Assembly: GCA_017550625.1 (NCBI GenBank)
Contig: JAFZOL010000008.1
Coordinates: 1 to 56,893, forward strand
From: Clostridia bacterium
GTDB lineage: Bacteria; Bacillota; Clostridia; Oscillospirales; Acutalibacteraceae
DNA length: 56,893 bases
Reading direction: 5' to 3'
Both the position numbers and the translations under genes were made by a program. Below the pieces are notes generated by a model. It had not been told where the DNA came from. It searched no databases and was given only the letters and a program-made list of their open reading frames with translations. Each line of letters starts with the position of its first letter. The stretch's first letter is position 1. This document shows, piece after piece, positions 3,832 to 48,353 of this stretch.

Positions 3832-3840
3832 ATGCGGGAT

Positions 3841-5341: not shown

Positions 5342-5351
5342 AGGAGAGACT

Positions 5352-6290: not shown

Positions 6291-6304
6291 GCCGGGGCGT
6301 ACTC

Positions 6305-6460: not shown

Positions 6461-6464
6461 AACA

Positions 6465-6660: not shown

Positions 6661-6668
6661 AATTTTTC

Positions 6669-6700: not shown

Positions 6701-6721
6701 AGACGGAAGGGAGGGACGCCG

Positions 6722-21114: not shown

Positions 21115-21280
21115 TCTCTTCTCCTTCTCGGTAAAAAGACCGATAAAACACCGCCATCATATCACACTTCTTTCAAAAAGAAAAGCTTTATTAACGATTT
21201 GTAACGATTTTTTTACCCGTTTGTGAAAAAAAGAAAGCGAGGCGGAGCGTGGAAGCACAGCTCCGCCGCGCGGACGCCTT

Positions 21281-21853: not shown

Positions 21854-22203
21854 ATTCTCTTCCTTTCCGCCGGTCGCCGTCCGGTCCGGACGGTCCGGCA
21901 CGACACGGTTTTGGGGCGCCGCTTCCCCGGAGCGCATACGTTTCACGCTCCCCGGCGCCGGTTTCAGCATACCACGCCCGCGCCGAAAAGGGCGCTTTTG
22001 CGAAAAAATTAGCCGCTTTGTTGTCATTTTCGGCCCCCGAACAGCCCCTTTTTGCCCGCGCGGCCCTGCAGCGCCCCGCCTCCGGCCCCTCAATTTTGTA
22101 TTTTGTATTTTGCATTTTGCATTCTTTCTCCCGTGCACCCATGCACCCGTGCACCCGTGCACCCGCGCGGCCCCGCCGCGCCCCGCCTCCGGCCCCTCAA
22201 GAC
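21854..22203. repeat. pgsA 5' region and composite repeat cassette (locus VI)
   Basis: 21854-22060 holds the pgsA leader, with an imperfect GGAGCG/CGCTCC stem; no clear promoter is seen. 22065-22200 holds the repeat cassette: CGGCCCCT runs, TTTTGTA/TTTTGCA heptamers (22094-22125), CCCGTGCACC-type octamers (22130-22170) and a second CGCCCCGCCTCCGGCC run. It lies just downstream of the giant minus-strand gene. Confidence 0.7.
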
Positions 22204-22233
22204 AAAAGAGGACCCCCTCTTGCGAGGGGGTCC
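22204..22233 (-). terminator. Terminator of the giant repeat-protein gene
   Basis: GGACCCCCTC (22210-22219) pairs with GAGGGGGTCC (22224-22233), loop TTGC. On the minus strand it is followed by CTCTTTTGTC. The U-run is short but the stem is very strong. Confidence 0.75.
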
Positions 22234-22268
22234 GGGGTTGGGTTCGGTTCAGCCTTCAAAGCCTTATC

Positions 22269-25200
22269 TTATTTGAACAGGCTCTGGAACCAGGCGATGA
22301 TCCTTCTGAAGAAGTCGCCGATGGATTTGAAGAAGCGGATGAAGCCGTTGGGCACCACTTCGTCCTCGTCCACCACGTCGGGCGTCCACTTGTTGAGCAG
22401 ATCGCCGAAGGACTTCTCGAGCTGGTTCATGAAGCCGAGGTTCGAGGTCGCGAACAGCTGGTTCAGGAACGAGTAGTCGCCGTTGAACTCCGCAAGGCCG
22501 TTGTTGGTGGCGACGCCCGCATTCAGAGCGGCGTAGAAGATGTAGTACACGGTGTACATGATCTTATCCATGCCGTCGTGCGTGGAGGCCATCTGGCCGA
22601 AGTTCTCGAGCAGCGCGCACAGGAACTTGTAGCCGTCTTCGTTGAGCTTGCCCTTGAGCAGAGCCTCGATCGCCTTGACGTTCTGCGGTTCGGAGATGAA
22701 GCGCAGGAAGAGTCTGAGCACCAGCGTGACCATGTCGACTTCGTCGCCGCTGCCCTCGGGCGCGTACACCATGGTGTAGTCCTTCGGGTTGCCCGCGGTG
22801 GGAACTCTGATCTGGGTCAGCGTCTTGACCTTGCCGAGCAGCAGCTCGTTGGCCGCGTCGCCGATGACGCCGGTCAGGTCGAGAGGCGCATCCTCGTTGA
22901 TGCTGTCGATCAGCTTGTTGAGCAGCGAGTTGAGGTCGGCCACCTTCAGGCCGTCGATGCCGATGAGCTTGTAGAGGCTGACGCTGCCGTCGTTGTCATG
23001 AAGCTGCGGCACGTCGGCGATCAGCGGATCGATCGCGGTGAGCAGGTTGTAGATCGGGTTCAGAAGGTTCTTGAACGCGGTGTCGAGGCCGTCGCAGTAC
23101 AGGAAGTACACAACGCCGGTGAGCTCGTCGAAGACTCTGGTCATCGGATCTTCAAGGATGTAGTCCACTCTGTTGAGGATCGGCGTGATGATGACCTTGA
23201 GCAGGTCGTCGTCGGAAAGGGCGGCGTACTGCGTCTGGTTCAGGATCTCGCTGTCTTTCACATGGAGGGCCTGGAGGATCGGGATGATCGCGTACTGATA
23301 GCCTTCAGCGCCGTGGAGGATCAGGTAATCGTCGCCTTCGCGGTTGTTGAAGAACGCGATGTCTTCGCCGGTGAGCAGCCATCTCAGGATCGGCGAGACC
23401 GGCCGCAGGATGCGGCAGAGCTCGTTGATGAACTGGGTCTTGTTGCCGTCCTGGATCGGGTTGACCGTGATGTTCACAAGGTCTTCAAGGTCGATGCCGA
23501 GGCTGCGGGCGAGCACTTCTTTCACGTGCGTGTAGAGGCCGGCTTCCTTCAGCGTCTGGACGAGGCTGCCCATCGCGCCGGAGATCGCGTCCGCCACAGA
23601 CTGCAAGGTGGAGGTCTTGTAGATCGTGTTGCCGAGCAGGTCGTTGAGGATCTGCTTGAGGTTCCTGTAGGTGCCGCCTCTGCCGTTGTCGACGCCGAGC
23701 AGGGTGATGTAGGTGTCGATCAGCAGCGAGAAGTACTTCTGCATGTAGGCGCCCATCTCTCTGGTGTACAGCGGGCCGTAGATCGAGTCGCCGAAGATGG
23801 ATTCCGCGGTCAGGCCGCTCGCCGGGGACAGGATCGTGTCGGTATCCGCGTACTGCGTGAAGCGCCAGTTGTAGTCGTACATGTTGATCGTCACGGCGCT
23901 GTCGGTCAGCAGCGCGATGATGGTATCAAACACGTTGTTGGCCTTCTGCTCATCCATGCCGGCCTGCATGATCAGGTTGACGAGGGCTTCTCTGTTGCCG
24001 TATTCGCCGTCCTTCTTGTAGGTGATCACGTCGAGCAGGAGCGTGACGACGATCGTGACCATGTCGATGCGGTTCTCTTCTTCGGTGTAGACCATTCTGA
24101 AGCCGGGCACGCCGCCGTAGGTGGTGTAGGGCTCCAGCGCGCCGAAGTAGAAGTTCTTGAGATACGCGCCGATCGGTTCGCCGTCTTCATCGCTGAGCAC
24201 GAGGCCGAGCTTGTTGTAGACGAGTTCGAACACGAAGTCGAAGTTGAGGTTCTCGAGATCGACCGCCGTGATGAGGCTGTTCACGCTCATGCCGGGCTTG
24301 CCGATCACCGCGCCGACCGCGGCGAGCAGGGCGTCGATGGGAGCGAGCAGGTTGTGGACGGAGACCGAGAGACCGTCGGCGTCGACGAAGTAGATGACGT
24401 TCAGGAGCAGCAGCAGCGCTTCGTTGATCGTGTCGCCGCCGTAGAGGATCTGGTCGATCCTGTCGCAGAGGTTCGTGAGGACCTCTCTGAGGGCGACCTC
24501 GGTCTTCTCTTCGCTGATGTCGGTATCCACGCCGAGCGCGCCGAGGATCGGGGCAAGGCCGTTCTTGTAGCCTTCGCCGCCCTTGATGCGGATCATGGCG
24601 GGATCGCCGGCCGCTTCGACCACGGTGGATTCGTCTTCGATCCGCTGGACCTCGGTGTCGGTCAGGTGCGTGAAGAGCTCGAAGTCCTTGCCGAAGAGCA
24701 GGAAGTCGAGGACCGTGGACAGCGGGGACAGGGTCTCGACGAAGAAGTCGACGAACTGTTCCTTGTTGGTGATGCCGGAGGCCTTCTTGGTCTTCAGCGC
24801 GGAGAGGTTCTCAGCGCCGACCAGCGCGCCGACGTTGTCGATCAGCACGTCGTCGACCTTCGACAGGGCGTTCGCGATGTAGCCCATGAGGGCGTTCGCG
24901 GTGTCGTCGGAGAAGACCTTGACGTTGGTCTCGAGCAGCTCCTGAAGGCTGACGTTCTGGCCCTGAGTGATCATGTTGACCGCCGCGTCGACGATGCTTT
25001 CGAGGTTCTCGTTGAGATAATCTCTCAGCTCGTAGCTCCAGTTGTTGTCATACTCGAGATAATGGATCGTGCGCACGGGCTGCGGCTTGAGGTCGTCGAC
25101 CTTCAGGCTCAGGATGCCTTCGATGGCCGCCTGCAGCTCTTCGGGCGTCATGGCCGCGAAGTAGCCCCAGTTGATGTTGCGGATCGCGTCGTCGCCGAGC

Positions 25201-28200
25201 TTGACGCCGGAGACAAGGATCGCCTTCAGGTTGTGGAAGTCTTCAACCGTGAGATCCACGCCGAAGTTCGCGAGCAGCGCGACGATGGGCTCTTCGTTTT
25301 CTTCATACAGAAGCACGTCGAGCACGAAGCTGAGCAGGATGGTGAGCATGTCGCCCCTGTTTTCATTCAGCTCCATCTTGAACGCGGTGTTGCCGTTCGC
25401 GGAGGTGTAGACCGTGAGCGGCGTGCCGGGCGCGCCGAGATAGAAGTTCTCGATGACGGACTTGTCGCCCTCCGTCGGGAAGGCTTCGAGGATCTTCAGA
25501 CCCTTGAGCAGCAGGCCGTCTTCGGTCTCGTAGTTCTCGAGGAAGGTGAAGATGCCGACGAGGTCGAGCTTCTTCGTGTCGATCGCGAACTTGTCGAAGA
25601 CCAGTTCTTCGACGCTGGCGTAGTCGCCGAGCGAGTCGATGAGACCCATCTCGAAGACCTTGTTCGCGGCGTTGATGATGCCGCCGAACATGTTGTAAAC
25701 CGCGTCGGACAGGCCGTTGGCGTTGATGAAGTAGATGAGTTCGGGCAGCAGGGCGATCGCTTCGTCCACCGGATCGGCGAGGATGGCGTCAACTCTCGCG
25801 AGGATCGCGCGCACCAGCTCGGGAACGATCTCGGCGGCGGTGCTGTCGGCGGTCACGGCGGGCGTTTCCACGCCGAGGGCCTCAAGGATCGGCGCGAGGC
25901 CGTTGCCGTAGGCGTCAGAGCCCTGAACGACGATCAGGTTCTCGTGGTTCTGCTTATCCTTGACGAACAGGGTGAGAGCCTTGCCGAAGAACAGCCAGTC
26001 GAGCACGCTGTAGACGGGCGTGAGGATCTCGATCACAGCGGAGCCGAACGAGCCGGAATCGGTGATCTGCGCGTCGGTGTAGGCAAGACCATCCCAGTAA
26101 GTGAGGTCGGTCTTGAGCAGGGCGTCGATCGTCTCGAGCAGGCCGTCGTCCACGTATTCGTAGAGGTTCTGGATGAGCTCGAGGATCTTGTTCAGGTTCT
26201 CGGCGGTGTAGAGGTTGAAGCTCTGGTTCAGGATGCCGGCGACCGTCTGCTTGGTCTCGTCGTCCGCGTTGACCATCTTGAGCACCGCGTTGATGATGTC
26301 GTCAAGGTTGTCAACGAGCGAGTTGGCGGTGGTCTGCGTCCAGTCGCTGCGGTAAGTGATGTAGTTCATGAACGGCGTCTCGGGCGTCGTGATGCCCACG
26401 AGCTCGTCGCCCACTCTGGTCTCTTCGCCGCCGAAGTAGTTCCAGTCGTAGTTGAACGAACCGGCGCCGAGGTGCGCGAGCGCGTCGATGAAGGCGTTGA
26501 TGGTGCCCTCTTCGATGCCGAGCCACCCTTCGAGCTTGGCGGTGTTGTCGCCGTAGAGCGCGGCTTCAAGCAGGTAGTTCACGAGCACCGTGATCATATC
26601 CGCTCTGTCCTTGCCCTGGTTGCCGTCGGAATATTCCATACGGAAGGCGGTCTTGCCGTTGGCGGACTCGAACGCGGTGATCTGGCCGAGATAGAACTCT
26701 TCGATCTTGTTCTCTTCGATGAACTCGTCGAGCTCAAGGCCGGAGATCGCCTCGACGATCTTGATGAGATCGTGGAGTCTGAGCTCCTTGGTGTCGATCG
26801 TGACGTTCCATTCGGCGGGCAGCAGGCCGTTGACGAGCTGGTCCACGTCGATGGAGGTGTATTCGCTGCCGCCGAGGTTCAGCGTGATGCCAAGCGCCTC
26901 AATGACACCGTTGACGCCGTCAACGAGGGCGAGCGGCGCGCCGAGCAGGTGGTTCACGGCGGAAGCAAGGCCGTTGGCGTTGATGAAGTAGAGGACGTTC
27001 GGGATCAGCGCCAGGATCTGGTTGACCGGATCGTCGAGGATCTGTTCGGCTCTCTCGAGCACGGCCTCGATGATGCCGGGCAGCAGAGCGGTGGTGCAGT
27101 AGTTCGGATCGGTGCCGCCCTCTTCGGGGATGGTCACGTGGTCGGGCTGGACGCCGAGGGCTTCAAGCAGCGGGATGAGACCGTAGGCGTAGCCGTCGTA
27201 GCCGTTCACAACGATGATGTCGGCGATCACCGCGTCGTCGATGTGGCCCTTGTTGAACAGCGCGAGGTCGTCGCCGAACAGCAGCCAGTCGAGGATCGGG
27301 GCGATGGGCGCCACGATCTGGGCGAGGCCGTTGGCGAAGGAGGCGCGGTCGTGGATCTCGGAACCGAAGGTCATGGTATCCCAGGCCGAGATATCAACGT
27401 CGAGCAGGACGTCGATCGCCTCTTTGATGCGGTTGTTCTGGAGCTCGCCGTCAACGGCGTCGTTGATCACGTCGTCCAGCTTGCCGGTCAGCTCGGCGAT
27501 CGCATCCTTGATCGTGTTGAGCAGGTCGGCGGTGTAAAGGACTTCGTTGACGTCGAATTCCTCGCCTTCCCTGTCAAGGGCGGTCATGAGCGCTTCCTTG
27601 AGGAGGCCGGAAACGGTCTTGCCCTCGGTGGCCGGGATCATGTTGAGCACGGCCGCGATCAGGGTGCCGAGATGGTCGTCAAGGTAGTTGGCGAATTCCT
27701 CGTCCCAGTTGGACCAGTAGGACAGGTAGTTGATGGACGGGGTGAGAAGCGTCAGGTTGCTTTCGGGCGTGTAAGTATACGCGGGATCGAAGTAGAACCA
27801 GTCGACGTCGGGTTCGACGTTCAGGGCGCTGTCGCTGAGCAGGTCGAGCACCGCCTCGATGGTTTCGGCCGTGATCGTCACGTCGCCGGTCTTGCCGTTC
27901 AGGATGTCGGCAAGGGCCTGACGGTTGGGCTCATACTTGAGCATGTCGATCGCGAGCGAGATCGCGATGGTGATGAGGTCGGCTCTCTCGGCGCCGCGCT
28001 CGTAAGGCGTGTAGAACATCTTATAAGCGCTCTGGCCGGGTTCGAGGTCCGCCTTGGTATCGTACTTGGTAGCGGTGCCGAGGGCGAACTTCTCAAGGGC
28101 GTAGGTCTCGCCGATGACGGGTCTGATCTCGAAGTCGGTGAGGGCTTCCACAAGATCCACGAGCCAGGCGAGGTTCACGCCGTCGAACGAGAAGGTGATC

Positions 28201-31200
28201 TCGTCGTTCTCAAGCGCGTCTCTGATCATATCCCGGACGAAGCCTTCGATGTAGGCCTTGACCGTGGTGCCTTCGGGGATGTCTTCGCTGAACTTGTCGA
28301 TGCCGATCGCGTCAACGATGTTGAACAGGACGGTGGTCGTGTTGTTGATGACCACGCCGAGGCCGTTGGCGTTGATGAAGTAGATGAGTTCGGGGATGAG
28401 ATCGAGCACCTCGTTGATCGGATCCGCGAGGATCTCGTTCACGCGGTTCACGATGCCGTGGAGCACCACGTCGAGCAGCTCGTGCATGTCGGCGTAGTCG
28501 GCGCCCTTCTTGAGGCCCTTCACGCCGAGCGCTTCGAGCAGGTACACGAGGCCCTTGCCGTAGGCGTTGGTGCCGGGCACCTTGATGAGACGCTGTTCGC
28601 CGGTCTGGGCGTCCACGAAGAACTCGTAGCTTCTGCCGAGCAGCAGCCAGCTCAGGAGTCTCTCAGCGGGCTTGAGCACCATGAGCAGGGCGTTGACGAA
28701 GTCGTCGGCGCCGGCGATGGCATAGACCTTCGCGTTGTCCTTGATGCTGTATCTGAGGCCGGTCTCGGGCTCTTCAACGTATTCCGCACCCTCTTCGGCG
28801 GCCTCGAAGGTCCAGGTGGAATCCCAGACGCTGAGCTCGCCGCCGAGCACAAGGCCCGCGAATTCAAGGATGTGGCTGCCGATGAAGGCGTCGTCGCCGT
28901 AGAGGTACTTGCGGATGAGCTCCATGATGGAGTTCAGGTTCTTCGCGTTGTAAACGAGCTCGTCAAGGTCCACGTTCTCGGCGATCAGGTCGGCCACCGT
29001 GTAGTCGGCGTCGCCGTTGACGATCGCGAGGATGTTGTCGACAAGGTCGGCGAGGACGTTGTCGAGGCCGTTGGCGCGGGCCATGGTCCAGTCGTTCTTA
29101 TACGCGAGGTAGATGAAGCTGCGTTCGGGCACCTTGATGGTGTCGGAAAGCTCCGCGGTGGTGTCGAAGTAGTTCCAGTTCGGGGTGGTGTAGTTCGCGT
29201 TGACCTCGACCTTGCCGGTGAGCACGTCGACCACGTAGTCGATGAGCGCCTCGGTGTCTTCGCCGAGATCGAGCATCTCCTTCAGGACCTCGATGTTCAC
29301 GCGTTCGCCGTCCTTCTCATACAGCAGGACTTCAACGATGAAGTTGACCGCGATCGTGATCATTTCGGCTCTGCCCTCGTCCTCGCTGTAGACCATGCGG
29401 AACGCGGACTTGCCGTTGGAGGATCTGAAGTATTCGAGCTGGCCGAGATAGAACAGGTCGATCTTCTGGGCGGTGACCACTTCGGCGATCTTGAGGCCGG
29501 TGATCGCTTCGATCAGTTCAACGACGGCGATCAGGTCGAGCTTTTCGATGTTGATATTATAGTCTTCCGGCACGATGGGCTCTTCGCCTTCTTCGTGGCT
29601 GTGCAGCAGCTCGTTGACGAGGTCGTTGACGTCGACGTGGTCGATATGGTTCTCACCGATATCGATGCCGCCGAGCTCCTCAAGCGCCTCGTTCACGGGA
29701 TCGAGCAGGCCGAGCACCGCGTTGAGCAGGTTGAAGACGGACACGGACAGACCGTTGGCGTTGATGAAGTAGAGGATGTTGGGCAGGATGGCGAAGATCT
29801 GGTTGACCGGATCGTCGAGGATCTGCTCCACTCTGGTGAGAACGGCGTTGAGGACGTCGTACAGGAAGGTGCTGCCGGCCTCAAGCTTGGTCTCTTCGGT
29901 CACGTCGGGGAGGTTCTGCACGCCCAGCGCCTCGAGGATCGGCACGAGACCGTAAGCGTAGCCCTCGGCGCCCTTGAGATTGATGAGGTCGCGCTCGTCG
30001 GCGCCGCCGTGATAGTAATCGTTATCGTAGAAGTAGTCGAAGCCTTCGCCGAACAGCAGCCAGTTGAGCAGGCCGTAGACGGGCTCGAGCACCTGGGTGA
30101 GGCCTTCAAGGAAGGATGCTCTGCCGGTGATCGCTTCGTCCGCGAAGTGCATCGTGTTGTAGGCGGAGAAGTCGCCGCCGAGGATGAGGCCTGCCACCTT
30201 GATGAGGGCGGGCGCGAGGCTCGAGGTGAGGCTCTTCACGGCGTCAACGATCTTGTTGAGGTTTTCAGCCGTGTAAAGGTCTTCGATCGAGAAGGCGCTG
30301 GCGATCAGGCCGGCAACGGTGGTCTCTTCCATGCCGAGCAGCCCGAAGACCTCGGCAAGGATGTCTTCGATGTGCGTGGCGACGTAGTCCGCGGATTCCT
30401 CGGTCCAGTCGGACGAGTAATCAATGTAATGGATCGTGCGCTCGGGCATCGGGATCTCGGGCGGCTCTTCTTCGTTATCAAGCGCGGTCTGGTAGGCTTC
30501 AAGATACGCGTCGAAGTCGAACGTCTCGTCGCCGAAGTAGTAGAACCACTCGATCTCCTTCATGTCGCCGAGCTGGGCGTTCTGCAGGATGTCGAGCACG
30601 GCCGCGATGGTGCCGGGCGGGATCACTTCTTCTTCCGCGTTGATCATGGCCTCGATCACGGCGGCGTTGTCGCCGTATTCAAGAACGTCGATCACGAGCG
30701 AGAGCAGGATGGTGATCATGTCGGCGCGCATTCTGGCGCGGGAGTTCGCCGTATGCTCGTCTTCGGTCGCGAAGCGGACCTTGTAGGTCTCGGTGAGGCC
30801 GGTGTCTTCGTTCACGAAATACTCGGTGGCGGAATCGTAGCGCTCCACGACGCCGATCACGAAATACTTGAAGGCGTAGCCCACGGCGTCTTCGATCTCA
30901 AGGTCGGTGACCGCCTCGACAAGGCCGATGACCCAGCTGAGGTCCACGTCGTCCCACGTGAAGGTCCAGTCTTCGTCGACGTTGTCGCCGAGCAGGCCCT
31001 TGATGAGGTCGCTGAGCATCGCTTCAACGTCGATCTCGGTGTTGCCGAGCAGGCCGGATTCGTTGACCTTCTCGAGCACGTTGAGCACGGAGCCCGCGAA
31101 GTTCTGGACGACGGTCTGCAGGCCGTGCGCGTTGATGAAGTAGAGCAGTTCGGGGATGAGCGCGAGCAGCTCGTCGATCGGGTTCGCAAGGATGGCGTCG

Positions 31201-34200: not shown

Positions 34201-37200
34201 TTGACGGGATCCGTGACCTGATAGTCGCGCACGTATCCGAGGCCTTCGACGCCGAGGGCTTCGAGCAGCAGCGCGAGGCCGTCGCGGTAGCCGTTGGAGC
34301 CGCGGATGGTGAGCAGCACTTCGCCTTCAACGGTGTTGGAGGAGAAGAAGGTGTAATCCTGGCCGAAGAGCAGCCAGCCGAGCAGGCCGGTGGCGGGCTC
34401 GAGGAGCTTGGTGATACCGGCGACGAACGAAGTCTTGTCGTTGACAATATACTTCTTGACTTCGCCGTCCATGTAATAGCCCATGCCGGCCTCGGTGCCC
34501 TCGGCGGTGCCCTCGTTCACGAAGGCGTAACGGCCGTCCCACTGGGTCAGGTCGCCGCCGAGCACCACGCCGATGAGCTTGATGAGAGTCTCGTTGAGGA
34601 CGGAATCCTCACCGTAGAGGAGTTTGTGGACCACATCGAGGATCTTCTGCAGCAGCTCGCCGGAATAGATCGCGTCAACCGTGAGGATGTCGCCGAGGGT
34701 CTCGGCGTCGCGGATGCGCGTCATGAGTTCGGCGGTGTCGCTCTCGGGATCGATGGTCTCGGGCACGAGCATCTTGAGCACCTGGAACACCAGGTCGCCG
34801 AACGAATCCTCGGCGCCCTTGGCCTTGTCATAGGTCCAGAGCGTGGTGTAGTTGAGGTACTGGAACGCGTAGGCCGGGACTTCCACGACCATGGTCTCGT
34901 CGTCGGTGTGGGCGGCGAGATCGTAGCCCTCCTGGAAGTAATCCCAGTTCATCTCGATGCGCGTCAGGGTCTTCGGGTTGCGAAGGGCGTCGAGGATCTG
35001 GCCCACGAGGCCTTCGTTCTCTTGGCCCTTGAAGAGGAGCCTGTCGAGCGTTTCGGCGTTGTTGAACTCCACGAGGTTGCCGTGGTTGTCGGTATCGATG
35101 AAGCTGCCGGTGTCGGTCGCGTACTGAAGCACGAGGGCAAGGAGCACGGTGACCATGTCCTTCTTCTCTTCTTCAGAGGTGTACTGCATCTTGTAGCTCT
35201 GGTAGCCGTTCGCGGACACGAAGGGCTTCACTTCGCCGATGTAGAGGTTCTTGATGTAGGTCGCGAGCTCGTTGCTCAGGCGCAGGCCGGGCAACAGGTC
35301 GCCGTTATCCTTATAATCGCAGGTCAGCTTGTAGATCAGGCCGAACACGCCCTCGAGGGTCAGCTTGGTCAGATCGAGGCCGGAGCCCATGATGTTGGTC
35401 AGGTCGAAGTCGAGGTCGATCACGGTGTTGAGCGCCACGAGGACCTGGTTGATGGAGCCGAAGATATTCTCAACGGAGACCGAAAGGCCGTCGGCGTTGA
35501 CGAAGTAGATGATGTTCGGCAGGTTGTTGAGCAGCCACGTTACGGGGTTCGCAAGGATATCGTCGAACAGGTCGTCGAAGATCGTGAGCATATCGTCCAC
35601 GAATTTCGCGGAGTCGTAGCGCGCGTCGCCCGTGAGCTCGGGATGGTAGTACGAATCGGGCTCGTAGCCGGTGAGATCGACGCCGAAGGCCTCGAGGATC
35701 GGCACGAGGCCGACAGCGTAGGCGTTCGCGGCGTTGAGCACCACGGCGTCGCCGTAGTTGCCGTTTTCGATGCCGCCGTCGGGATCGGTGAAATCGTAAT
35801 GCTTGAACAGGCGGTAGTCGCGGCTCAGGAAGATCACGGCCAGCAGGTTCGCGGCGGGCTCGATGAGGGTCTTGAGGGCGTCAAGGAACTCGCTCTTCGT
35901 GTCAACGTAGCCTGTGCCGCCCTCGACGAACCACGCGTATGCGGGGTTCGCGACGTATTTGCCGTCCTCACCGAGGGCGAGGATGCCGTCTTCGATCCAC
36001 TTGTTGAGGTTGATGCCGATCAGGTGGTCGACGATGTCGATGATCTCGGCGGGCACCACGTCGTAGAGCTTGCCGAGGAAGCCGACGAGGGTCTGCAGGG
36101 TGTCGTTCGTGAACAGCTTCTGGTCGAGCAGGGCGGTCACGAGGTCGGAGAAGTTGGTGATCTCGCCCTCAAGGCCGAGCGACTCGAGCGGCACGAGGCC
36201 CACGACGTAGTCGAGCAGGCCTTCGAGCATCTCCACGGTCGCCTGCGCGTGCTCGGGCTGCCACGAGGTCAGGTACTGCAGGTTATACATATAACCGTAG
36301 TGCAGCTTGTGGAAGTCAGCGACCTGGACCTTGCTGGTGAATTCGTTATAAATGTTCTGGCTGTTCGCCTGGGTCTCGCCGGTGGCGTCAAGGTCGGTCC
36401 AGACGAAGGTGTCGCCGTTGGGCTTGGTGGGAACGGTCCTGTTTTCGAACACGTAGTCCCAGTTCGGGCGCTTGACGTGGTCGGAATACGGAACGTCCTT
36501 GAAGACCTTCACGATCGCTTCGATGAGGCCAGAGGCGTCCGCCTCGTCGCCGATGAGCGCCTGCGCGCCGGGAAGACGCTCTCTGGCGGTGCCGAGCAGG
36601 GCGTCGAGCGCCTCTGCGTTCTTATAGTTCAGAATGCCGTCGCCGTCGGTATCCTCCTCGTATCTGAGAAGGTCGAGCAGCGCGGAGATCGTGACCGTGA
36701 TGGTATCGCGGCCTTCGAAGTTCAGCGTGTAGGATTCATAGAGGTTATGCTGCGGGTTCGTCGCGCTCGGGTTGTAGCGCTCGACCGGCAGGTACGCCGT
36801 GTGCTTCCACGGCTTGCCCGTGGTGGTCGAGGACACGTAGGCGAGCTGGATCACGTTCTGATAGCTCATGCCCTCGAGGGCGTAGGTCAGCGGGCTGAGA
36901 TCGAGGCCGGTGAGGGCTTCGACCAGCGTGTAGACGTCCTCAAGGCTCAGGCGCTTTAGCGAGAAATCGAAGATATTCTGCACCTTGTGCGCGTCTCTCT
37001 GCGCCGCCTGATCGGAATAGGTGGCGGGCTTCATGCCGATGAGGTCGAGCAGCACGCTTGTGATCGGGCTCTTGATCGCGTAGTTCGCGTCGTTCTCGTC
37101 GTAGACGAAGCCGAGCGCGCGGCAGAGCACCACGTGGATGATCTCGTCAAGGTTGAGGTTGACAATCGGGCGAAGGGTGTCGAGCAGCTGCCAGACGAAC

Positions 37201-40200
37201 ATCGGCAGGTTCTTCAGGATCGTGGTGATGCCGTCGGACTGGATGAAGTAGAACAGGTGCGGCAGCACGTCGATGACCTTCTGGAAGGCGCCCTTGCCGA
37301 AGACCTTGCCGCCTTCTTCTTCGGTGGAGGGAACAAGCTGGCCGCCCTCGTAGATGAAGTCGCCGTTAGAGTCGACCTTGAAGTAGAGCAGGTTGCCCTG
37401 ATCGTCCTTCAGGCGTTCGTCGGTGAGCAGGTAGGTCAGCGTGTCGAACAGCTCCTTCACGAGCTCGTTGAACGCGGAGTCGGAGCCTTCGGTCTCGACC
37501 TTGTTCTTATACGCGGCGCCGGTCATCATGTCGTGGACGCCGAGGGCCTCCATCATGGGCAGGATCGCGTAGTCGTAGGCGGGATAGCCCTGGATGGTCA
37601 GGGAGTTGCTCGAAGTGGTGCCGAACAGATGCAGGTCGGTGCCGGACAGAATGAACGAGAACAGCGGGGCGAGCGGGCCGATGAGTTCACAGAAGATCGC
37701 CGTGAACACGTAGCGCGGACGGTTGATCTCGTCGGGATCGCTGGGCAGGTTGTTCGCGTCGAGGTCCACGAGCGGGATCCACGTGCCGATCGCCTCGTCG
37801 CCGGGCAGATACGCGGCGTTGGCGGCGGTCTTCCTGATCTCCCAGGTGTAGAGGATGTCGCCGTTTTCGGACGTGCCCGCCTCGGTGGCTTTCAGGTTCG
37901 GGAACAGGCCCTGGATGTAAGCCTGGTTATACGGAACGATGCTGATCTTCTTCAGCACGTCGCCGTCCTTCTGCCATTTGATGGTCTGGCCGGGCGCCAC
38001 GGGATAGGCTCGCAGGGCGCTGACCGAATAGCCGGAGCTGGCGCCGAGGCTGACGTTGGCGGTCTGCGTGTTCATGTTGATGTCCGCAGTCCCCTCTTTC
38101 ACGGTCAGCTCGTAGAGGTAGGTCTGCTTTTCGATCGCGTTGTAGGCCAGGAACTGATGGCCGGACTCGTCGGGCTCGACCTGATAGTCCTCGTAGATGT
38201 AACCGAACTTGTTATACCAGTCGAGGAGGTTGAGGTCAATGTCGGCGTCGGCGGTGCCCGCCTCGCCCTTGATCTGCTGACGCAGGATCTTGGACACGCC
38301 GGGCACGGCGGCGAGGGCGTTGCCGATCGCCGTGACGATCTCGATGACGTTCATGATGCCCTCGTTGTCGAACATCTGGTTGATGAACGCCTGCAGCCAG
38401 ACGTTGGCGTCGCTGCCGAAGCCTTCGAGGACCGAGGAATCGATCATGTTCATGACCGCGTTGACGATGTTGTCGACGTTGTCGTAGAGATACTGCGCTT
38501 TTTCGACCGTCCAGTCGTTGTTATACTGCGTATAGGCAAGAGGAGCGGTATCGGAGAAGGTATATTGACGGTCTTCGTCGTTGGACTGGAACCAGTCGAA
38601 TTCGGCGAGGTCGTATTCGGGCTCGTTCAAAAGCTCAATGAGGGCGGCGAACGCCTGCTGCGAGCTCTCGATGCCGCCGAGCAGCGTGAACACGATCTCG
38701 GGCAGGCTTATTTCGCTGCCGGAGAGCTCGGCAACGAAACCGAGGATCTCGGCCAGCACGCCGGGCTGCTGCACCGCGCGGAACAGGTAGTCGAATACCG
38801 AGAAGAACACGACTGCGGTGTTCGCGGTGACATAGGTGCGCTTGCCGTTCTTGGAGGTGAAGGATTCCACCTTGTCGTCCGCGTTATAGGAAACGGTATA
38901 AGCGGAGGATGCGTAGGTCTTCGAGATGGAGTTGTACATCGTGGCCAGCTTGCCGGTGTTGATGCCGGGCAGGCTGAGGGTGGCGCCCTCTTTGATCATG
39001 CCCACGACGCCCTGCAGCACGGAGTTGATGTCCGTCAGGGAGAAGCCGAGGATGTCTTCGAGGACCAGGAAGTCGCTGAGGCTGATGGCCTCGTTGACCT
39101 CGATGGCGCCGGCGATGGACTGGCTGAACGCGTTGCCGGCCCACTGGATGATCGTGGTGGTGATGTCGGTGCCGTCGAAAGTCAGGTCGTTACCTTTCAC
39201 GTACAGCACGACGTGGCGGTCGAGAAGGCCGTTCACGCTGCCCGCCATCAGGTGGTAGCTGAGGTTCGGTAAGAGCTTCGCGACCGATTCGACCGGGTGG
39301 TCCGCCACCTGGCCGATCAGGGCGTAGAGCGGGTCGAACAGCGCGCCGACGAGCTGCGCGCCCGTGCAGGACGACGACAGCGCCGGGAAGCTGTAAGACA
39401 TCAGGTCTCCGTTGATGCCCAGCGCCTCCATGATCGGGATCCACAGGGTGCGGTAGAGGTCGAGCGCTCTGACGCGCAGCTGGATATCGAGGTCGTAGCC
39501 TTCGATGTCGTGCGTCATGCCGAACCAGAAGAACTCGGACAGGTACCACTTGCCGGAGCCGGTCAGATGCGCGCGGACAGCGGCGAAATCGTGGACGCTC
39601 GACTGATAGAAGTCGGCGGAGGTGAACAGGGCGCGCAGCAGCGGCAGGGCCGCGCCGAAGATATCGCCGAGCACGGTCTTGAACCGGGCGAAGCGCGCGG
39701 CCGCCACGGCGGACACGTCGGTACCGGTGATGGAGTCGATGCCCCAATCGAAGTCGAACACGACGGGATCGACCCAGTTGCCGTCGGCGTCGGTGGCGGA
39801 GCTGGCCCTGAACTTCGTCCAGCCCGCGTTCGCGGTCTGGATCGCGTTGCCGGCGGCGGTGTAGCCCTTGCTCGTCAGATACGGGCCGAAATACTGCGGG
39901 TAGATCTTGACCTCGAGCTGGTTGAGCATGTTCGCGAAGGTCACGGTGCCGTGGCCCTCCTGGCTCACGCCGCCGTTGTACCAGATCTTCAGCGTGCCTT
40001 CCACGTAGTCCTGCGGAAGGGTGCTCAGATTCAGGCCGGCGCCGTTGTTGTTGACCTTTTCTTCAAGGACCTTCGGGATGGTCTTCTCGAACAGGTCGGT
40101 CAGCATCGGGAAGAGGGCGGCGAGCAGCTTGTTCACGATCTCGTCGGTGAACAGGTTCTCAACGAGCACGAGCTTGATGTATTCGTTGAGCGTGGTGATG

Positions 40201-43016
40201 CCGAGGCCGCGGTCGTCCGCGCCGAGCAGTTGGGTCATCTGCTGGCCGCTCAGGAACGTGTCGAGCTTGGTGATGGTCGACTCGATGCTCGCCTTGTTGC
40301 CCTGCACGTTCGGAGCCGTGCCGGTGTAGGCGGTGAAATAATCCTTCGGTGCGGTGGAACGCGCGAAGTCGGCGTCCACGCCCTTGCGGGTGATGTATTT
40401 ATAAGTATTGCCGCCTTCCTTGCGCAGGTAGTTGGTCTGGTTGTCGAACACGGTGTTATAAAGATTGCTCGTGGACCAGCTGTTCGCCTGCGAGATGATC
40501 CACGCGGCGGTCCTGCTGTCGGAGGCGGCCACGGAGGCCGTGTTCAGTAAGCTCATATTCTTGCCGGCCGCGGTCAGGATGCCCGTTGCCACGGTGCCGT
40601 TCAGGAAGTTGATGAGCTCGGTGCTGATGTGCGACGCGTCGGTGCGGATCGCATAAACGTTGCGGATATCCACGACGCTGCCGTTGAGCTCGTAGTCGTC
40701 AACGATGCGCCGGATCGACGCGGCGGCGCGGTCAAACAACTCGACGTAGAGGCTGTCGATGAAAGCCCTCGCCTTTTTGCCGCGGATGTCGTTCGCGAAC
40801 CAGGAATATCTGGTCTTGAGCTGGTTATAGAGATACTCGAAGGTGCCGGGGGCGGAGCTGTTGCCGATGTCGGCCATCACGGTGGCGGCGGACTTGCCGG
40901 ACGCGCCGTAGCCGGTCATCTTTTCGACCAGCGTGAGGTAATCCTCAAGGAACTGGTCGGTCACGCGGCCTCTCGAAGTGCGCTCGGCGTTCAGGGCGGT
41001 CACGGTCTCGTCGATGGCGTTGACCTGGGCCTGCGTCATGTAGAGCGAGATGTCCACGCCGGCGTTCCTCGCCTCGGCGATGTAGTTCGTGGCCTGCGTG
41101 AAGAACGTGATCAGGTCAAGCAGGTCGTCGTCGGTGATCGGGCACTCCTCATCCGAGAAGTCGTAGTCGGCGGAGACGTAATCGTTGTCGCCGATGCCCT
41201 TGAGACCGCCGTAAACGCGGCTGATCTCGTAATAGTCGCCGAGCTCGGCGCCGGAGGGCGTTGAGACCGTGACCATCTTGACCTCGTAATACGAAGCAAG
41301 ATCTTCGACCGTGGGCGAAGCAACCGCGACGTAAGAACCGCCGTCGGCGACGTAATAGGTCTTGCCCGAGGCAATGACCTTATCCGTCGTCTGGACGTAG
41401 TTATACGTCACGACCTTCTCGTAATAGGTCGCGATGTTTTCGGCCGAGGGCGAAGCGACGGCCGTATACTCGTTCGTATCCGCGTTCAGGACGTAATAGG
41501 TCTTGCCCGCGACGGGCGCAGTGTCCTCGGTGGGCACGTAGCTGACCGAGGCGACGTCCTTCTTGTAATAGGTCTTGGTCTGGTCGACGTGCGTATCCGA
41601 AGTCTTCTTATAGGTCGTGGCGAGCAGTTCGTCCGCCGCGACGGCCTGGAAGAAGCGGGACGCCTCGTTCGAGAACGTGTAGACCGTGTTGTGGTTGTTG
41701 TTGAGCAGGACCTCGGTCGCGGTGGCGATCTCCTGCAGGTAGTATTTATAGATGAGAGCGTCAAGCGTGGCGATGTGCGCGTCGAACTCTTCGCCGGTGT
41801 AGCCGTAAACGCGGTTCAGGGCGGCGAGGATGTCGGCGGAAGCGCCGGCCATGTTCCCCTTCAGAGCGACCGTGGCGGCCCTGACCGCCTCGAGCGAGCC
41901 GATATCGGTGGCCGTGTAGTCGTCGCGGTTGCGGTAGCCCGCCACCGGGATCGCCTGCATGATCCACAGCACGTAGTCTCTGTAAGCGACGACGGCGAGG
42001 GCGTCGTTCGCGGCGGCCACGTAGGCGTGCTGCTTCTCGAGGTTCTCGCTGCCGAGGAACTCCTCGATATAGCTCATATCCACCGTGGGATCGGTCGTGA
42101 TGACGTCCGCCCACAGGCCGGAGGTCAGATACTCGTCGACCAGCGTCTGCAGCGATTCGGTGGAGCGGGCGATCAGCGCGTCGATGCTGCCGTTGGTGCC
42201 GTAGGCGTAGAACTCTTCATAGCCCTCGGTGAACGCGGCGGTGCTGACGTAGTCGATATACGCCTTCAGCTTGGTCAGGTGGTTCGTGAGCGCGTCGCTC
42301 AGGGCGGGCGTCTCTTTTTCAACCGTGATCTCGCTGTTCGCGTAATACATGCCCGTTTCGCTGCCGTTATCCGATTCCGTGAGCACGGGCGACCCCGTGA
42401 TCGTCACAGTGACTTTGGTCTCGGCCGTTTCGGGCACGACGGAAAGGTTCTCCACGTCAGACAGCACGGCGGCCTCTTCGCTTCTGGTCGCGACGAGGGT
42501 CATGGTCAGGGCTCCGAACGCTTCGGCGTCGTCGGCGGAACCGTTCCACAGGGTTTCGGGCGTATAGGCGCCGTAGTTTCCGTCAGCGGGCAGCAGGGCG
42601 GTCAGAAACGCCGTCTGGAACTCGTTGAGGGTGTAGGACGCGACAGCCGTCAGCTGAGAGGCGATGTAGCCGCGCAGCTGCACGTTGTTTTTGCCCTTTC
42701 CTTCAGCCTCCAGTACGCCGGCCAGCGCGCGGACCACGTTATAGGCGTAGCCGTTGCGCGTTTCGTCCGTCACGGTGACGGTGCCTTCGGCGGAGATGAT
42801 CGAGCTCCAGTCGTTGGTGCTCATATACCCCGCGTTTTCGGCGGTGCGGAACGCATTCGCAAGCGCGTTCCAGTCGGCGGCCTCTGCGCCGGATCCGCCT
42901 TCCGCGAACGCCTTGGGAACGAACACGGGCAGCGCGGCGTAGACACAGCTGAAAGCCATGACGACCGACAGGAAAATACTGAGAACTTTCGAAGGTAACT
43001 TCGCTCTCGTTTCCAT
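22269..43016 (-). CDS. Giant secreted repeat protein (6,915 residues)
   Basis: One uninterrupted frame of 20.7 kb. The ATG at 43016 is chosen (AGAAGGAG 7 nt upstream); an in-frame ATG 10 codons earlier has no such site. Residues 1-38 are a signal peptide (LSIFLSVVMAFSC, cleavage near AFA). Residues about 40-1250 are mostly unique, with three GKTYYV/TYYE-type units at about 475-600. From about 1250 to 6900 come one diverged and eleven clearer repeat units of 420-580 residues. Each contains, in order, a DMITILLxxLLDVLLY helix, a YF..YLDYxSDWT block, a DLYTAENLN block, LLxWLLFGxD, GYxxGLxPLLEALGV and PNLIYFINANGL. The last residues form an aromatic/basic tail (GFIRFFKSIGDFFRRIIAWF). No LPXTG, SLH or catalytic domain is seen. 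Probably a surface or matrix protein; function unknown. Confidence 0.9.
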   Translation of the reverse strand: METRAKLPSKVLSIFLSVVMAFSCVYAALPVFVPKAFAEGGSGAEAADWNALANAFRTAENAGYMSTNDWSSIISAEGTVTVTDETRNGYAYNVVRALAGVLEAEGKGKNNVQLRGYIASQLTAVASYTLNEFQTAFLTALLPADGNYGAYTPETLWNGSADDAEAFGALTMTLVATRSEEAAVLSDVENLSVVPETAETKVTVTITGSPVLTESDNGSETGMYYANSEITVEKETPALSDALTNHLTKLKAYIDYVSTAAFTEGYEEFYAYGTNGSIDALIARSTESLQTLVDEYLTSGLWADVITTDPTVDMSYIEEFLGSENLEKQHAYVAAANDALAVVAYRDYVLWIMQAIPVAGYRNRDDYTATDIGSLEAVRAATVALKGNMAGASADILAALNRVYGYTGEEFDAHIATLDALIYKYYLQEIATATEVLLNNNHNTVYTFSNEASRFFQAVAADELLATTYKKTSDTHVDQTKTYYKKDVASVSYVPTEDTAPVAGKTYYVLNADTNEYTAVASPSAENIATYYEKVVTYNYVQTTDKVIASGKTYYVADGGSYVAVASPTVEDLASYYEVKMVTVSTPSGAELGDYYEISRVYGGLKGIGDNDYVSADYDFSDEECPITDDDLLDLITFFTQATNYIAEARNAGVDISLYMTQAQVNAIDETVTALNAERTSRGRVTDQFLEDYLTLVEKMTGYGASGKSAATVMADIGNSSAPGTFEYLYNQLKTRYSWFANDIRGKKARAFIDSLYVELFDRAAASIRRIVDDYELNGSVVDIRNVYAIRTDASHISTELINFLNGTVATGILTAAGKNMSLLNTASVAASDSRTAAWIISQANSWSTSNLYNTVFDNQTNYLRKEGGNTYKYITRKGVDADFARSTAPKDYFTAYTGTAPNVQGNKASIESTITKLDTFLSGQQMTQLLGADDRGLGITTLNEYIKLVLVENLFTDEIVNKLLAALFPMLTDLFEKTIPKVLEEKVNNNGAGLNLSTLPQDYVEGTLKIWYNGGVSQEGHGTVTFANMLNQLEVKIYPQYFGPYLTSKGYTAAGNAIQTANAGWTKFRASSATDADGNWVDPVVFDFDWGIDSITGTDVSAVAAARFARFKTVLGDIFGAALPLLRALFTSADFYQSSVHDFAAVRAHLTGSGKWYLSEFFWFGMTHDIEGYDLDIQLRVRALDLYRTLWIPIMEALGINGDLMSYSFPALSSSCTGAQLVGALFDPLYALIGQVADHPVESVAKLLPNLSYHLMAGSVNGLLDRHVVLYVKGNDLTFDGTDITTTIIQWAGNAFSQSIAGAIEVNEAISLSDFLVLEDILGFSLTDINSVLQGVVGMIKEGATLSLPGINTGKLATMYNSISKTYASSAYTVSYNADDKVESFTSKNGKRTYVTANTAVVFFSVFDYLFRAVQQPGVLAEILGFVAELSGSEISLPEIVFTLLGGIESSQQAFAALIELLNEPEYDLAEFDWFQSNDEDRQYTFSDTAPLAYTQYNNDWTVEKAQYLYDNVDNIVNAVMNMIDSSVLEGFGSDANVWLQAFINQMFDNEGIMNVIEIVTAIGNALAAVPGVSKILRQQIKGEAGTADADIDLNLLDWYNKFGYIYEDYQVEPDESGHQFLAYNAIEKQTYLYELTVKEGTADINMNTQTANVSLGASSGYSVSALRAYPVAPGQTIKWQKDGDVLKKISIVPYNQAYIQGLFPNLKATEAGTSENGDILYTWEIRKTAANAAYLPGDEAIGTWIPLVDLDANNLPSDPDEINRPRYVFTAIFCELIGPLAPLFSFILSGTDLHLFGTTSSNSLTIQGYPAYDYAILPMMEALGVHDMMTGAAYKNKVETEGSDSAFNELVKELFDTLTYLLTDERLKDDQGNLLYFKVDSNGDFIYEGGQLVPSTEEEGGKVFGKGAFQKVIDVLPHLFYFIQSDGITTILKNLPMFVWQLLDTLRPIVNLNLDEIIHVVLCRALGFVYDENDANYAIKSPITSVLLDLIGMKPATYSDQAAQRDAHKVQNIFDFSLKRLSLEDVYTLVEALTGLDLSPLTYALEGMSYQNVIQLAYVSSTTTGKPWKHTAYLPVERYNPSATNPQHNLYESYTLNFEGRDTITVTISALLDLLRYEEDTDGDGILNYKNAEALDALLGTARERLPGAQALIGDEADASGLIEAIVKVFKDVPYSDHVKRPNWDYVFENRTVPTKPNGDTFVWTDLDATGETQANSQNIYNEFTSKVQVADFHKLHYGYMYNLQYLTSWQPEHAQATVEMLEGLLDYVVGLVPLESLGLEGEITNFSDLVTALLDQKLFTNDTLQTLVGFLGKLYDVVPAEIIDIVDHLIGINLNKWIEDGILALGEDGKYVANPAYAWFVEGGTGYVDTKSEFLDALKTLIEPAANLLAVIFLSRDYRLFKHYDFTDPDGGIENGNYGDAVVLNAANAYAVGLVPILEAFGVDLTGYEPDSYYHPELTGDARYDSAKFVDDMLTIFDDLFDDILANPVTWLLNNLPNIIYFVNADGLSVSVENIFGSINQVLVALNTVIDLDFDLTNIMGSGLDLTKLTLEGVFGLIYKLTCDYKDNGDLLPGLRLSNELATYIKNLYIGEVKPFVSANGYQSYKMQYTSEEEKKDMVTVLLALVLQYATDTGSFIDTDNHGNLVEFNNAETLDRLLFKGQENEGLVGQILDALRNPKTLTRIEMNWDYFQEGYDLAAHTDDETMVVEVPAYAFQYLNYTTLWTYDKAKGAEDSFGDLVFQVLKMLVPETIDPESDTAELMTRIRDAETLGDILTVDAIYSGELLQKILDVVHKLLYGEDSVLNETLIKLIGVVLGGDLTQWDGRYAFVNEGTAEGTEAGMGYYMDGEVKKYIVNDKTSFVAGITKLLEPATGLLGWLLFGQDYTFFSSNTVEGEVLLTIRGSNGYRDGLALLLEALGVEGLGYVRDYQVTDPVNGRVSVDTSAFVHDLALGIANRAEAICADPVNEIVSLIPELIYFINAGGLQACVTGLLSGPLGLVNSVAALSDVVKDALGVDLPDETEGEITENDYAIVNQLLTTVLKGAITTDKLDDEGHPVLDENDEPVKVSKLPDDWTFTLDGVNLKFALELVEYITGLELTAPLGENLDKFFMGEIVSYASKSEAVAYKARFSRENVDETDYKHFADFITILLSGVIDILEYQVGNEYVNAIVIGDMIDGVDTALIVSIVGLLKSGFESNILPIDWLYFDDATSLYTLDSDGNVVLKPEGQRPTITEGSLTKPDATISYLTYASDWTEETANYVTDNLKTIVLGVLGMLNKDGSMDNIVGIVNGSLAIEDLYTADNLNAILKPIKKLIAGDPNDPNSNGLPDIVLQLLNIVLDIDLSAYNDMAEYTTITGTKEQKRQAFVAGLNEVLQPIAPILDWLLFGRDLTYFDKKTGNEISPLISINGADGYVEAIVPLLEALGVRMPACTEETTSADILYPLINNVLARVESIAADPINEVLDLLPNLIYFINTNALATIVNNLLAPVFALVNQLSPILFKDENDEPLQPVPTEEININDMVEKILGLVNENLDVEIPAAVSVILDNVNFTKLDLLAIFELVEAVLASEAVMEDKAVELRLIDVLTGEHGAKIEKFYTHLVYAESSTGRPAFKMVGSADMVTILVNYLLEVLLYENGDFSNADAIDTLAGTDMVTKIVNLIKGISNAPEIEIATPVWNYFDENVELGEITIPAREFVYLDYSNSWTFEKAVAIDGQLGGLLTDVLTMAGIENVSDFINGLLPLDTYLSADGLNTILGLLRQYLYGEDAIIDEVLLNVVGHVIGAEGISAWKGDYIFESEAAAGYAVVEDETYGLSYYTDEAAIKHYIVTNRTEFASGLQLLLEPANKLLGWLLLGNDIAFFVKNEDGNVDNYEDLARQNNELIRIAGTEGYSTGLVLLLEALGCQGLRKASEYNGNASALLKDIIVSVLNRLDAILANPIDELLALIPELLYFINAHGLQTVVQNFAGSVLNVLEKVNESGLLGNTEIDVEAMLSDLIKGLLGDNVDEDWTFTWDDVDLSWVIGLVEAVTDLEIEDAVGYAFKYFVIGVVERYDSATEYFVNEDTGLTETYKVRFATEDEHTANSRARMRADMITILLSLVIDVLEYGDNAAVIEAMINAEEEVIPPGTIAAVLDILQNAQLGDMKEIEWFYYFGDETFDFDAYLEAYQTALDNEEEPPEIPMPERTIHYIDYSSDWTEESADYVATHIEDILAEVFGLLGMEETTVAGLIASAFSIEDLYTAENLNKIVDAVKSLTSSLAPALIKVAGLILGGDFSAYNTMHFADEAITGRASFLEGLTQVLEPVYGLLNWLLFGEGFDYFYDNDYYHGGADERDLINLKGAEGYAYGLVPILEALGVQNLPDVTEETKLEAGSTFLYDVLNAVLTRVEQILDDPVNQIFAILPNILYFINANGLSVSVFNLLNAVLGLLDPVNEALEELGGIDIGENHIDHVDVNDLVNELLHSHEEGEEPIVPEDYNINIEKLDLIAVVELIEAITGLKIAEVVTAQKIDLFYLGQLEYFRSSNGKSAFRMVYSEDEGRAEMITIAVNFIVEVLLYEKDGERVNIEVLKEMLDLGEDTEALIDYVVDVLTGKVEVNANYTTPNWNYFDTTAELSDTIKVPERSFIYLAYKNDWTMARANGLDNVLADLVDNILAIVNGDADYTVADLIAENVDLDELVYNAKNLNSIMELIRKYLYGDDAFIGSHILEFAGLVLGGELSVWDSTWTFEAAEEGAEYVEEPETGLRYSIKDNAKVYAIAGADDFVNALLMVLKPAERLLSWLLLGRSYEFFVDAQTGEQRLIKVPGTNAYGKGLVYLLEALGVKGLKKGADYADMHELLDVVLHGIVNRVNEILADPINEVLDLIPELIYFINANGLGVVINNTTTVLFNIVDAIGIDKFSEDIPEGTTVKAYIEGFVRDMIRDALENDEITFSFDGVNLAWLVDLVEALTDFEIRPVIGETYALEKFALGTATKYDTKADLEPGQSAYKMFYTPYERGAERADLITIAISLAIDMLKYEPNRQALADILNGKTGDVTITAETIEAVLDLLSDSALNVEPDVDWFYFDPAYTYTPESNLTLLTPSINYLSYWSNWDEEFANYLDDHLGTLIAAVLNMIPATEGKTVSGLLKEALMTALDREGEEFDVNEVLYTADLLNTIKDAIAELTGKLDDVINDAVDGELQNNRIKEAIDVLLDVDISAWDTMTFGSEIHDRASFANGLAQIVAPIAPILDWLLFGDDLALFNKGHIDDAVIADIIVVNGYDGYAYGLIPLLEALGVQPDHVTIPEEGGTDPNYCTTALLPGIIEAVLERAEQILDDPVNQILALIPNVLYFINANGLASAVNHLLGAPLALVDGVNGVIEALGITLNLGGSEYTSIDVDQLVNGLLPAEWNVTIDTKELRLHDLIKIVEAISGLELDEFIEENKIEEFYLGQITAFESANGKTAFRMEYSDGNQGKDRADMITVLVNYLLEAALYGDNTAKLEGWLGIEEGTINAFIDALAHLGAGSFNYDWNYFGGEETRVGDELVGITTPETPFMNYITYRSDWTQTTANSLVDNLDDIINAVLKMVNADDETKQTVAGILNQSFNLYTAENLNKILELIQNLYEYVDDGLLETIDALLKTDLTYWDGLAYTDAQITDSGSFGSAVIEILTPVYSVLDWLFFGKALTLFVKDKQNHENLIVVQGSDAYGNGLAPILEALGVETPAVTADSTAAEIVPELVRAILARVDAILADPVDEAIALLPELIYFINANGLSDAVYNMFGGIINAANKVFEMGLIDSLGDYASVEELVFDKFAIDTKKLDLVGIFTFLENYETEDGLLLKGLKILEAFPTEGDKSVIENFYLGAPGTPLTVYTSANGNTAFKMELNENRGDMLTILLSFVLDVLLYEENEEPIVALLANFGVDLTVEDFHNLKAILVSGVKLGDDAIRNINWGYFAAMTPEELQAAIEGILSLKVDDLKPQPVRTIHYLEYDNNWSYELRDYLNENLESIVDAAVNMITQGQNVSLQELLETNVKVFSDDTANALMGYIANALSKVDDVLIDNVGALVGAENLSALKTKKASGITNKEQFVDFFVETLSPLSTVLDFLLFGKDFELFTHLTDTEVQRIEDESTVVEAAGDPAMIRIKGGEGYKNGLAPILGALGVDTDISEEKTEVALREVLTNLCDRIDQILYGGDTINEALLLLLNVIYFVDADGLSVSVHNLLAPIDALLAAVGAVIGKPGMSVNSLITAVDLENLNFDFVFELVYNKLGLVLSDEDGEPIGAYLKNFYFGALEPYTTYGGVPGFRMVYTEEENRIDMVTIVVTLLLDVITYKKDGEYGNREALVNLIMQAGMDEQKANNVFDTIIALLTDSAVTINMYDYNWRFTQYADTDTILSPASGLTAESIFGDSIYGPLYTREMGAYMQKYFSLLIDTYITLLGVDNGRGGTYRNLKQILNDLLGNTIYKTSTLQSVADAISGAMGSLVQTLKEAGLYTHVKEVLARSLGIDLEDLVNITVNPIQDGNKTQFINELCRILRPVSPILRWLLTGEDIAFFNNREGDDYLILHGAEGYQYAIIPILQALHVKDSEILNQTQYAALSDDDLLKVIITPILNRVDYILEDPMTRVFDELTGVVYFLYCDGLDTAFKNLLNPIYNLLTAIDPLIADVPQLHDNDGSVSLYKLIGIDGLKVADLNSLLNKLIDSINEDAPLDLTGVIGDAANELLLGKVKTLTQIRVPTAGNPKDYTMVYAPEGSGDEVDMVTLVLRLFLRFISEPQNVKAIEALLKGKLNEDGYKFLCALLENFGQMASTHDGMDKIMYTVYYIFYAALNAGVATNNGLAEFNGDYSFLNQLFATSNLGFMNQLEKSFGDLLNKWTPDVVDEDEVVPNGFIRFFKSIGDFFRRIIAWFQSLFK

Positions 43017-43118
43017 AGAAACACTCCTTCTGATGTTTTTCAACATAATACAACTCCCCCCGTACCCCCCCCTCGTTTCCGATTTTTGGGGGCACTTCGG
43101 GTATACTATATCATCCCT

Positions 43119-43148
43119 ATTATACTACAAGAAAAAAGCCAAAGTCAA
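43119..43148 (-). promoter_or_regulatory. Sigma-A promoter of the giant gene
   Basis: Minus strand: -35 TTGACT (43143-43148), 18-nt spacer, -10 TATAAT (43119-43124), leader of about 95 nt. Confidence 0.8.
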
Positions 43149-48282: not shown

Positions 48283-48353
48283 AAAGAGACCTCCTAAAAG
48301 AAATCTGGACTGCAACAAGGCGCATTCGCCCCTTGTAGACTTATGCACAGTAT

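Follow-up and report, generated by a model that had tools for sequence, protein, structure and literature searches.

The window analyzed here, a stretch of 56,893 nucleotides from a Clostridia genome, encodes a real, well-conserved giant protein of the surface type, built from a lineage-restricted domain family that had no match in the libraries searched. It belongs to a known kind, the giant repeat surface proteins, and its domain appears, judging from gene neighborhoods, to be tied in evolution to an ABC operon, which was unexpected. We put at roughly 0.5 the probability that the giant is held at the cell surface by its C-terminal tail and acts there as a long multivalent tether. Members of the family are among the largest proteins in uncultured Clostridia of the ruminant gut; the analysis corrects the boundary of the unit, supplies a confident model of it, and links the domain both to a conserved ABC operon and to a C-terminal tail that is shared. 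Two links follow that can be tested: the tail may act to retain secreted proteins, and a two-unit protein may partner a MacB-like transporter.

The giant gene and its flanks

The gene lies on the minus strand at 22269 to 43016, with its ATG at 43016 and its stop codon, included in the range, at 22269, and encodes 6,915 residues (760 kDa). An earlier sequence-only reading had these coordinates right; an in-frame start further upstream, at 43046, would yield 6,925 residues. A likely ribosome-binding site, AAGGAG, was recognized from the sequence at 43024 to 43029 (minus strand), 7 nt 5' of the ATG. The same reading had reported a signal peptide, a promoter, and a terminator, of which the first was borne out by eye, as a signal-peptide-like N terminus (residues 1 to 38, 42903 to 43016), while the other two are consensus matches only: a promoter-like TTGACT-18-TATAAT site at 43119 to 43148 (minus strand; 11 of 12 consensus positions, against an average of 0.8 such sites in shuffled sequence) and a 10-pair terminator-like hairpin at 22210 to 22233 (minus strand; three terminator-like sites were found, versus 0.2 in shuffles).

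Two further frames deserve mention. A 5,236-residue open frame runs antisense to the giant gene, at 21249 to 36959 of the plus strand; GC at codon positions 1, 2, and 3 of the giant gene is 0.59, 0.35, and 0.89, and because of the high third-position value on the sense strand the antisense frame is most likely a by-product of composition. The upstream neighbor (43441 to 48348, minus strand) encodes a 1,635-residue secreted-type protein in which CxxC repeats are numerous; it has a weak match to the List_Bact repeat and an aromatic C-terminal tail of its own.

Twelve units of a predicted helical domain

A profile search with units cut at the SDWT block found twelve contiguous units, almost without linker, over residues 924 to 6824, with i-E values of 1e-17 to 7e-130; the profile was built in part from the giant's own units, and none of 200 shuffles scored above 6.3 bits, with 1.7 bits for the reversed sequence. 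A shared domain thus recurs along the array, in twelve copies and not the roughly eleven counted earlier, and in a different phase. The phase was taken from shorter relatives, namely a paralogue on contig C59 of the same genome (L076:3293-6373) and its homologues, in which the unit starts at the block equivalent to SDWT. The natural unit begins at SDWT, and the YFINANGL motif falls in the middle of the domain. All eleven motif positions given in the sequence-only reading were recovered, each 3 to 6 residues off its figure, at residues 1923, 2504, 2981, 3477, 3959, 4416, 4879, 5343, 5762, 6209, and 6637. The four blocks said to accompany the motif (SDWT, LYTAENLN, WLLFG, and LLEALGV) do repeat in constant order, though diverged in some units.

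Preceding the array is an N-terminal region outside the units (residues 39 to 923, 40248 to 42902), which is conserved in orthologues and more weakly in other arrays. The units, 415 to 745 residues long and all on the minus strand as placed by the profile, are unit 1, which is strongly diverged (residues 924 to 1494, 38535 to 40247), unit 2, which carries long insertions (1495 to 2239, 36300 to 38534), unit 3 (2240 to 2723, 34848 to 36299), unit 4 (2724 to 3254, 33255 to 34847), unit 5 (3255 to 3706, 31899 to 33254), unit 6 (3707 to 4199, 30420 to 31898), unit 7 (4200 to 4638, 29103 to 30419), unit 8 (4639 to 5101, 27714 to 29102), unit 9 (5102 to 5556, 26349 to 27713), unit 10 (5557 to 5989, 25050 to 26348), unit 11 (5990 to 6409, 23790 to 25049), and unit 12 (6410 to 6824, 22545 to 23789). 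By translation, a linker follows (residues 6825 to 6889, 22350 to 22544), and then the tail. When nine full units were cut at YFINANGL, their pairwise identity was 23 to 40%. Next-but-one units were often the closer ones: in this numbering, units 3, 5, and 7 share 37 to 40%, units 4 and 6 share 39%, and units 6 and 8 share 40%, with most other pairs at about 30 to 33%. Part of the array therefore appears to have grown in pairs.

Unit 8 modeled alone in AlphaFold2 (27717 to 29099) gave a confident model, with a pLDDT of 83.9 and a pTM of 0.83, and two units modeled together in the YFINANGL phase gave 83.7 and 0.71. The unit model is a discrete domain of helices with beta hairpins, and each unit is predicted to fold by itself as a mostly helical domain. 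The single-unit model had no match among the solved structures searched. With two units, the top PDB rows were exportin and importin HEAT proteins, at an E value of 0.1 or worse and a TM score below 0.1, and these rows did not recur in the single-unit search. Comparison with HEAT/ARM-type solenoids thus gave no significant structural match, and a weak or missing match is compatible with such a fold; the alpha-solenoid proposed earlier is not established by the model, which shows a discrete domain. The other part of that proposal, an unnamed secreted helix-rich repeat family, stood: the unit family was absent from our copies of Pfam (searched with the whole giant in two overlapping pieces, E up to 1), NCBIfam, PHROGs, and PADLOC, and the match to a characterized domain that would have spoken against a new family did not appear. 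No known adhesin domain was found in these libraries. A role in predation or defense, also suggested earlier, gained no support, there being no PADLOC match.

The giant is conserved and under selection

Orthologues of 7,197 and 7,235 residues were found at the syntenic place in two other genomes of the genus, both upstream of the genes that the window carries from the membrane protein at 19.9 to 21.2 kb through the ribosomal cluster. Codon comparison of the orthologue pair gave a dN of 0.25 and a dS of 0.80, and dN/dS was 0.16 to 0.45 in all 12 blocks of up to 600 codons; on this codon evidence, purifying selection has acted along the whole long frame in the orthologues. For ten units of the window, the best match in both orthologues was the unit of the same rank, at 38 to 53% identity. 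Since the units correspond one to one across species, the array, by this comparison, is older than the species. A third giant, of 7,691 residues, keeps nine of the ten corresponding units in shifted positions.

That repeat collapse or expansion during assembly produced the long frame, a reading that the earlier note had named as fatal to its claim, deserves next to no credence: the same assembly does hold an artefact contig that mirrors itself, but the units are diverged, the longest exact direct repeat in the gene is 35 nt, its best self-match is 64% identity over 813 columns, and the orthologues, of similar length and under purifying selection, come from other assemblies.

Range of the family

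Besides the window gene, the same genome encodes a second giant (a 6,702-residue frame on C46), two tandem mid-size arrays on C72 (3,085 and 2,199 residues), a lipoprotein-like member on C60, and a two-unit protein on C59, referred to below as the core, in which the unit profile finds both units (4e-24 and 3e-41). Contig C59 (144,220 bases; L076, L077, L189, and L193) mirrors itself, its matches pairing at positions that sum to 144,221; it is likely an assembly artefact, a palindrome in which genes are counted twice.

The unit profile matched 38 of 147 relatives, the own genome counted: all 26 genus genomes and 12 from elsewhere in the family, in other genera. Across the phylum, 398 genomes searched with the family profile gave a single match, the own genome; across the order, 2 of 295 genomes matched the core profile, each of them from the own family. 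The unit thus appears confined, among the genomes sampled, to the organism's own family. All 36 named loci are from uncultured Clostridia, Oscillospiraceae, or Ruminococcaceae, with stated hosts mostly of the ruminant gut, which is the pattern, homologues solely in Clostridia, that the sequence-only reading had named as support for a new surface-protein family.

In the fetched contigs, arrays ranged from 3 to 19 units and their frames from 2,199 to 10,643 residues. Two of them (G016:C38 and G021:C13) share the frame length of 10,643 residues and have nearly identical scores; near-identical strains, transfer, and binning contamination are candidate explanations. One precomputed Pfam domain, PF27071.1, is marked in the protein database on 13 of 91 relatives of the mid-size C72 paralogue. 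It is unmarked on the core or lipoprotein relatives listed, and in the Pfam copy that we searched it was not reported for any of four relatives, of which three carry the mark. Because PF27071.1 is the sole precomputed Pfam domain on the listed relatives, these annotations show the units unaccompanied by any enzyme or binding module.

A shared amphipathic tail

The giant ends in an amphipathic aromatic tail (residues 6890 to 6915, 22272 to 22349, minus strand), delimited by a tail model and an amphipathicity test. Array ends resembling NGFIxFFQKIxxFFxKIxDFFKNLF were present in 16 of 18 arrays, 15 of these 16 belonging to the tail model or its source set; the remaining two arrays are cut by contig ends. 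The tails were more amphipathic than shuffles in 15 of 16 cases and had a net charge of +1 to +4. Among 91 array proteins from the protein database, 68 passed the tail model, and the 23 that failed include some with looser tails, one truncated protein, and two with a C-terminal helix. Core proteins have a C-terminal membrane helix in place of the tail (120 of the 120 listed), and some other family members have a lipobox-like start.

The tail turned out to be shared with other proteins of the own genome. There were 19 tail-model matches at an E value of ≤1, of which 16 lay within 10 residues of a stop codon (15 of 18 when the mirrored contig is counted once, two of the 16 being the mirrored pair); four of these are training arrays. 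Of the nontraining carriers near a stop, eight begin with a clear signal-like sequence, the start of another is unclear, one is truncated by the end of its contig, and one is an 85-residue frame; the three matches away from a stop are on C63, C40, and C32. Among the carriers are hydrolases and repeat proteins, namely GDSL, M6-peptidase, InlB-repeat, and phosphoesterase proteins. From the position and amphipathicity of the tail only, we infer that it retains the giant at the surface. Several unrelated secreted proteins of the own genome (L106, L107, L110, L112, and L116) end in a variant block, CxLCGxxHTGFFGxIxGFFHRIxYFFxxLF, which is a candidate lineage-wide retention signal; NCBIfam reports nothing for it on the two such ends scanned.

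A sortase-anchored surface protein carries an LPxTG-like motif, a membrane helix, and a positive tail at its C terminus. The giant is likewise secreted and of the surface type, and its genome has three sortase matches. It differs in that an LPxTG-like motif is absent from the last 120 residues of all 16 arrays tested, and the strongest 19-residue hydropathy window in the giant's last 250 residues is 1.19.

A possible multivalent tether or envelope layer

As a tether, the giant would be exported through Sec, and the amphipathic tail would hold its C terminus to the membrane or to the inner wall, with the unit array reaching outward. The units could then act as repeated low-affinity contact modules for one partner, either a plant or host polymer or neighboring cells, so that many weak unit contacts would add up. 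The architecture, the selection, the family range, the gene pair described below, and the recurrence of the tail are established at the level of sequence. An adhesin or matrix role for the giant is plausible.

A comparison is offered by two giant surface proteins of staphylococci, Ebh (52 repeats, 1.1 MDa) and Embp (50 repeats, 1 MDa), whose modules, in the passages of the source drawn on here, are FIVAR and FIVAR-GA repeats of 125 to 170 residues, and of which Embp binds fibrillated fibronectin through many weak contacts (PMC9302970). Like these proteins as described there, the giant is very long and of the secreted type, with many tandem, mostly helical modules predicted to project from the cell. 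Unlike them, it has units of 415 to 745 residues, a different C-terminal tail, and no FIVAR or GA match in Pfam at an E value of up to 1. Because it lacks such a module, the resemblance would be one of working and not of membership.

A scaffold without a ligand would display the same features as a tether. The arrays might accordingly form a structural envelope layer, S-layer-like or a periwall scaffold, held by unit-unit packing with no external ligand, which we consider a possibility of lesser weight. It would fit with the conservation of the domain at widely varying array length (2 to 19 units), with the presence of arrays in 26 of 26 genus genomes searched, and with the absence of a recognized binding domain in the giant in the libraries searched. 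A uniform lattice subunit is, however, hard to reconcile with the low copy number of arrays per genome (two giants and two mid-size arrays in the own genome) and with array positions that have diverged into distinct paralogues.

The two-unit core protein and a MacB-like ABC gene

In the core on C59, as in its homologues, a signal-like start is followed by two units and the C-terminal membrane helix. The core was found in 26 of 26 genus genomes, in four cases as fragments at the ends of contigs; in the family sample, 26 of 398 genomes had it. For 19 of the 20 core loci fetched, the next frame on the same strand encodes an ABC protein of about 917 residues, starting between -159 and +334 nt relative to the core stop; the exception is a divergent copy in G426. 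The ABC protein matches ABC_tran (1.2e-34) and FtsX (2.8e-15) and has a stretch of about 480 residues between its first and second membrane segments. By coordinates, the core-then-ABC order held in 27 of 31 relatives with a core, the other four having the ABC gene on other contigs or no ABC match. Genes upstream of the core are common to the members of a genus and not to different genera.

The ABC family was found in 83 of 147 relatives, many of them without units, and by this distribution it appears older and wider than the unit proteins. Relatives of the own genome's copy (C59, L189:11393-14143) with 43 to 54% identity occur in many unit-less genomes of the order. Six unit-bearing genomes (G033, G034, G046, G059, G069, and G073) showed neither a full-length core nor the ABC protein at an E value of ≤1e-120. 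By this distribution, core and ABC are a linked pair, and since unit proteins occur in these six genomes, the arrays are not dependent on the pair everywhere.

The domain would be common to the arrays and to a single-span envelope protein encoded with a MacB-like ABC, from which the arrays may have been duplicated. According to the parts of the literature used here, MacB-type systems use ATP for work outside the membrane with extracytoplasmic partners (PMC5985334), and the MacB/FtsX-type (type VII) systems include MacAB-TolC, FtsEX, LolCDE, and YbbAP-TesA (PMC5985334, PMC12646458, PMC6355983). The core resembles the partners in these systems, so far as they are described there, in being encoded beside an ABC_tran and FtsX protein, and is a candidate partner of the MacB-like system by analogy. 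It differs from them in sharing no Pfam match with MacA, EnvC, PcsB, or TesA-type partners, and the giant gene is distant from any such ABC gene.

The recurrent gene pair and the known extracytoplasmic work of MacB-type systems would also suit a reading in which the units in general serve a MacB-like mechanotransmission ABC as extracytoplasmic partner or as cargo, with the giant operating within that system or being exported through it. We consider this unlikely, given the six genomes named above, the many genomes with the ABC family and no units, and a window in which the giant has no ABC_tran and FtsX neighbor, the only ABC candidate being a 26% match to a zinc-type ABC ATPase. More improbable again is the fuller scenario in which the unit was at first the outer arm of a MacB-like machine powered by ATP and was then duplicated into cables of up to 19 units, the giant docking on the membrane-anchored two-unit protein by unit-unit contacts and ATP hydrolysis moving, tensing, or releasing the fibre.

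Cellulosome-related matches in the genome

The giant itself has no cohesin, dockerin, or carbohydrate-binding match (Pfam, E ≤ 1), and its being the scaffold of a cellulosome-like system is a very remote prospect despite the dockerin-rich genome around it. The genome holds 55 Dockerin_1 matches, several of them doubled by the palindromic contig, and four cohesin matches; together with the sortase matches, this content suggests a cellulosome-like system in the organism.
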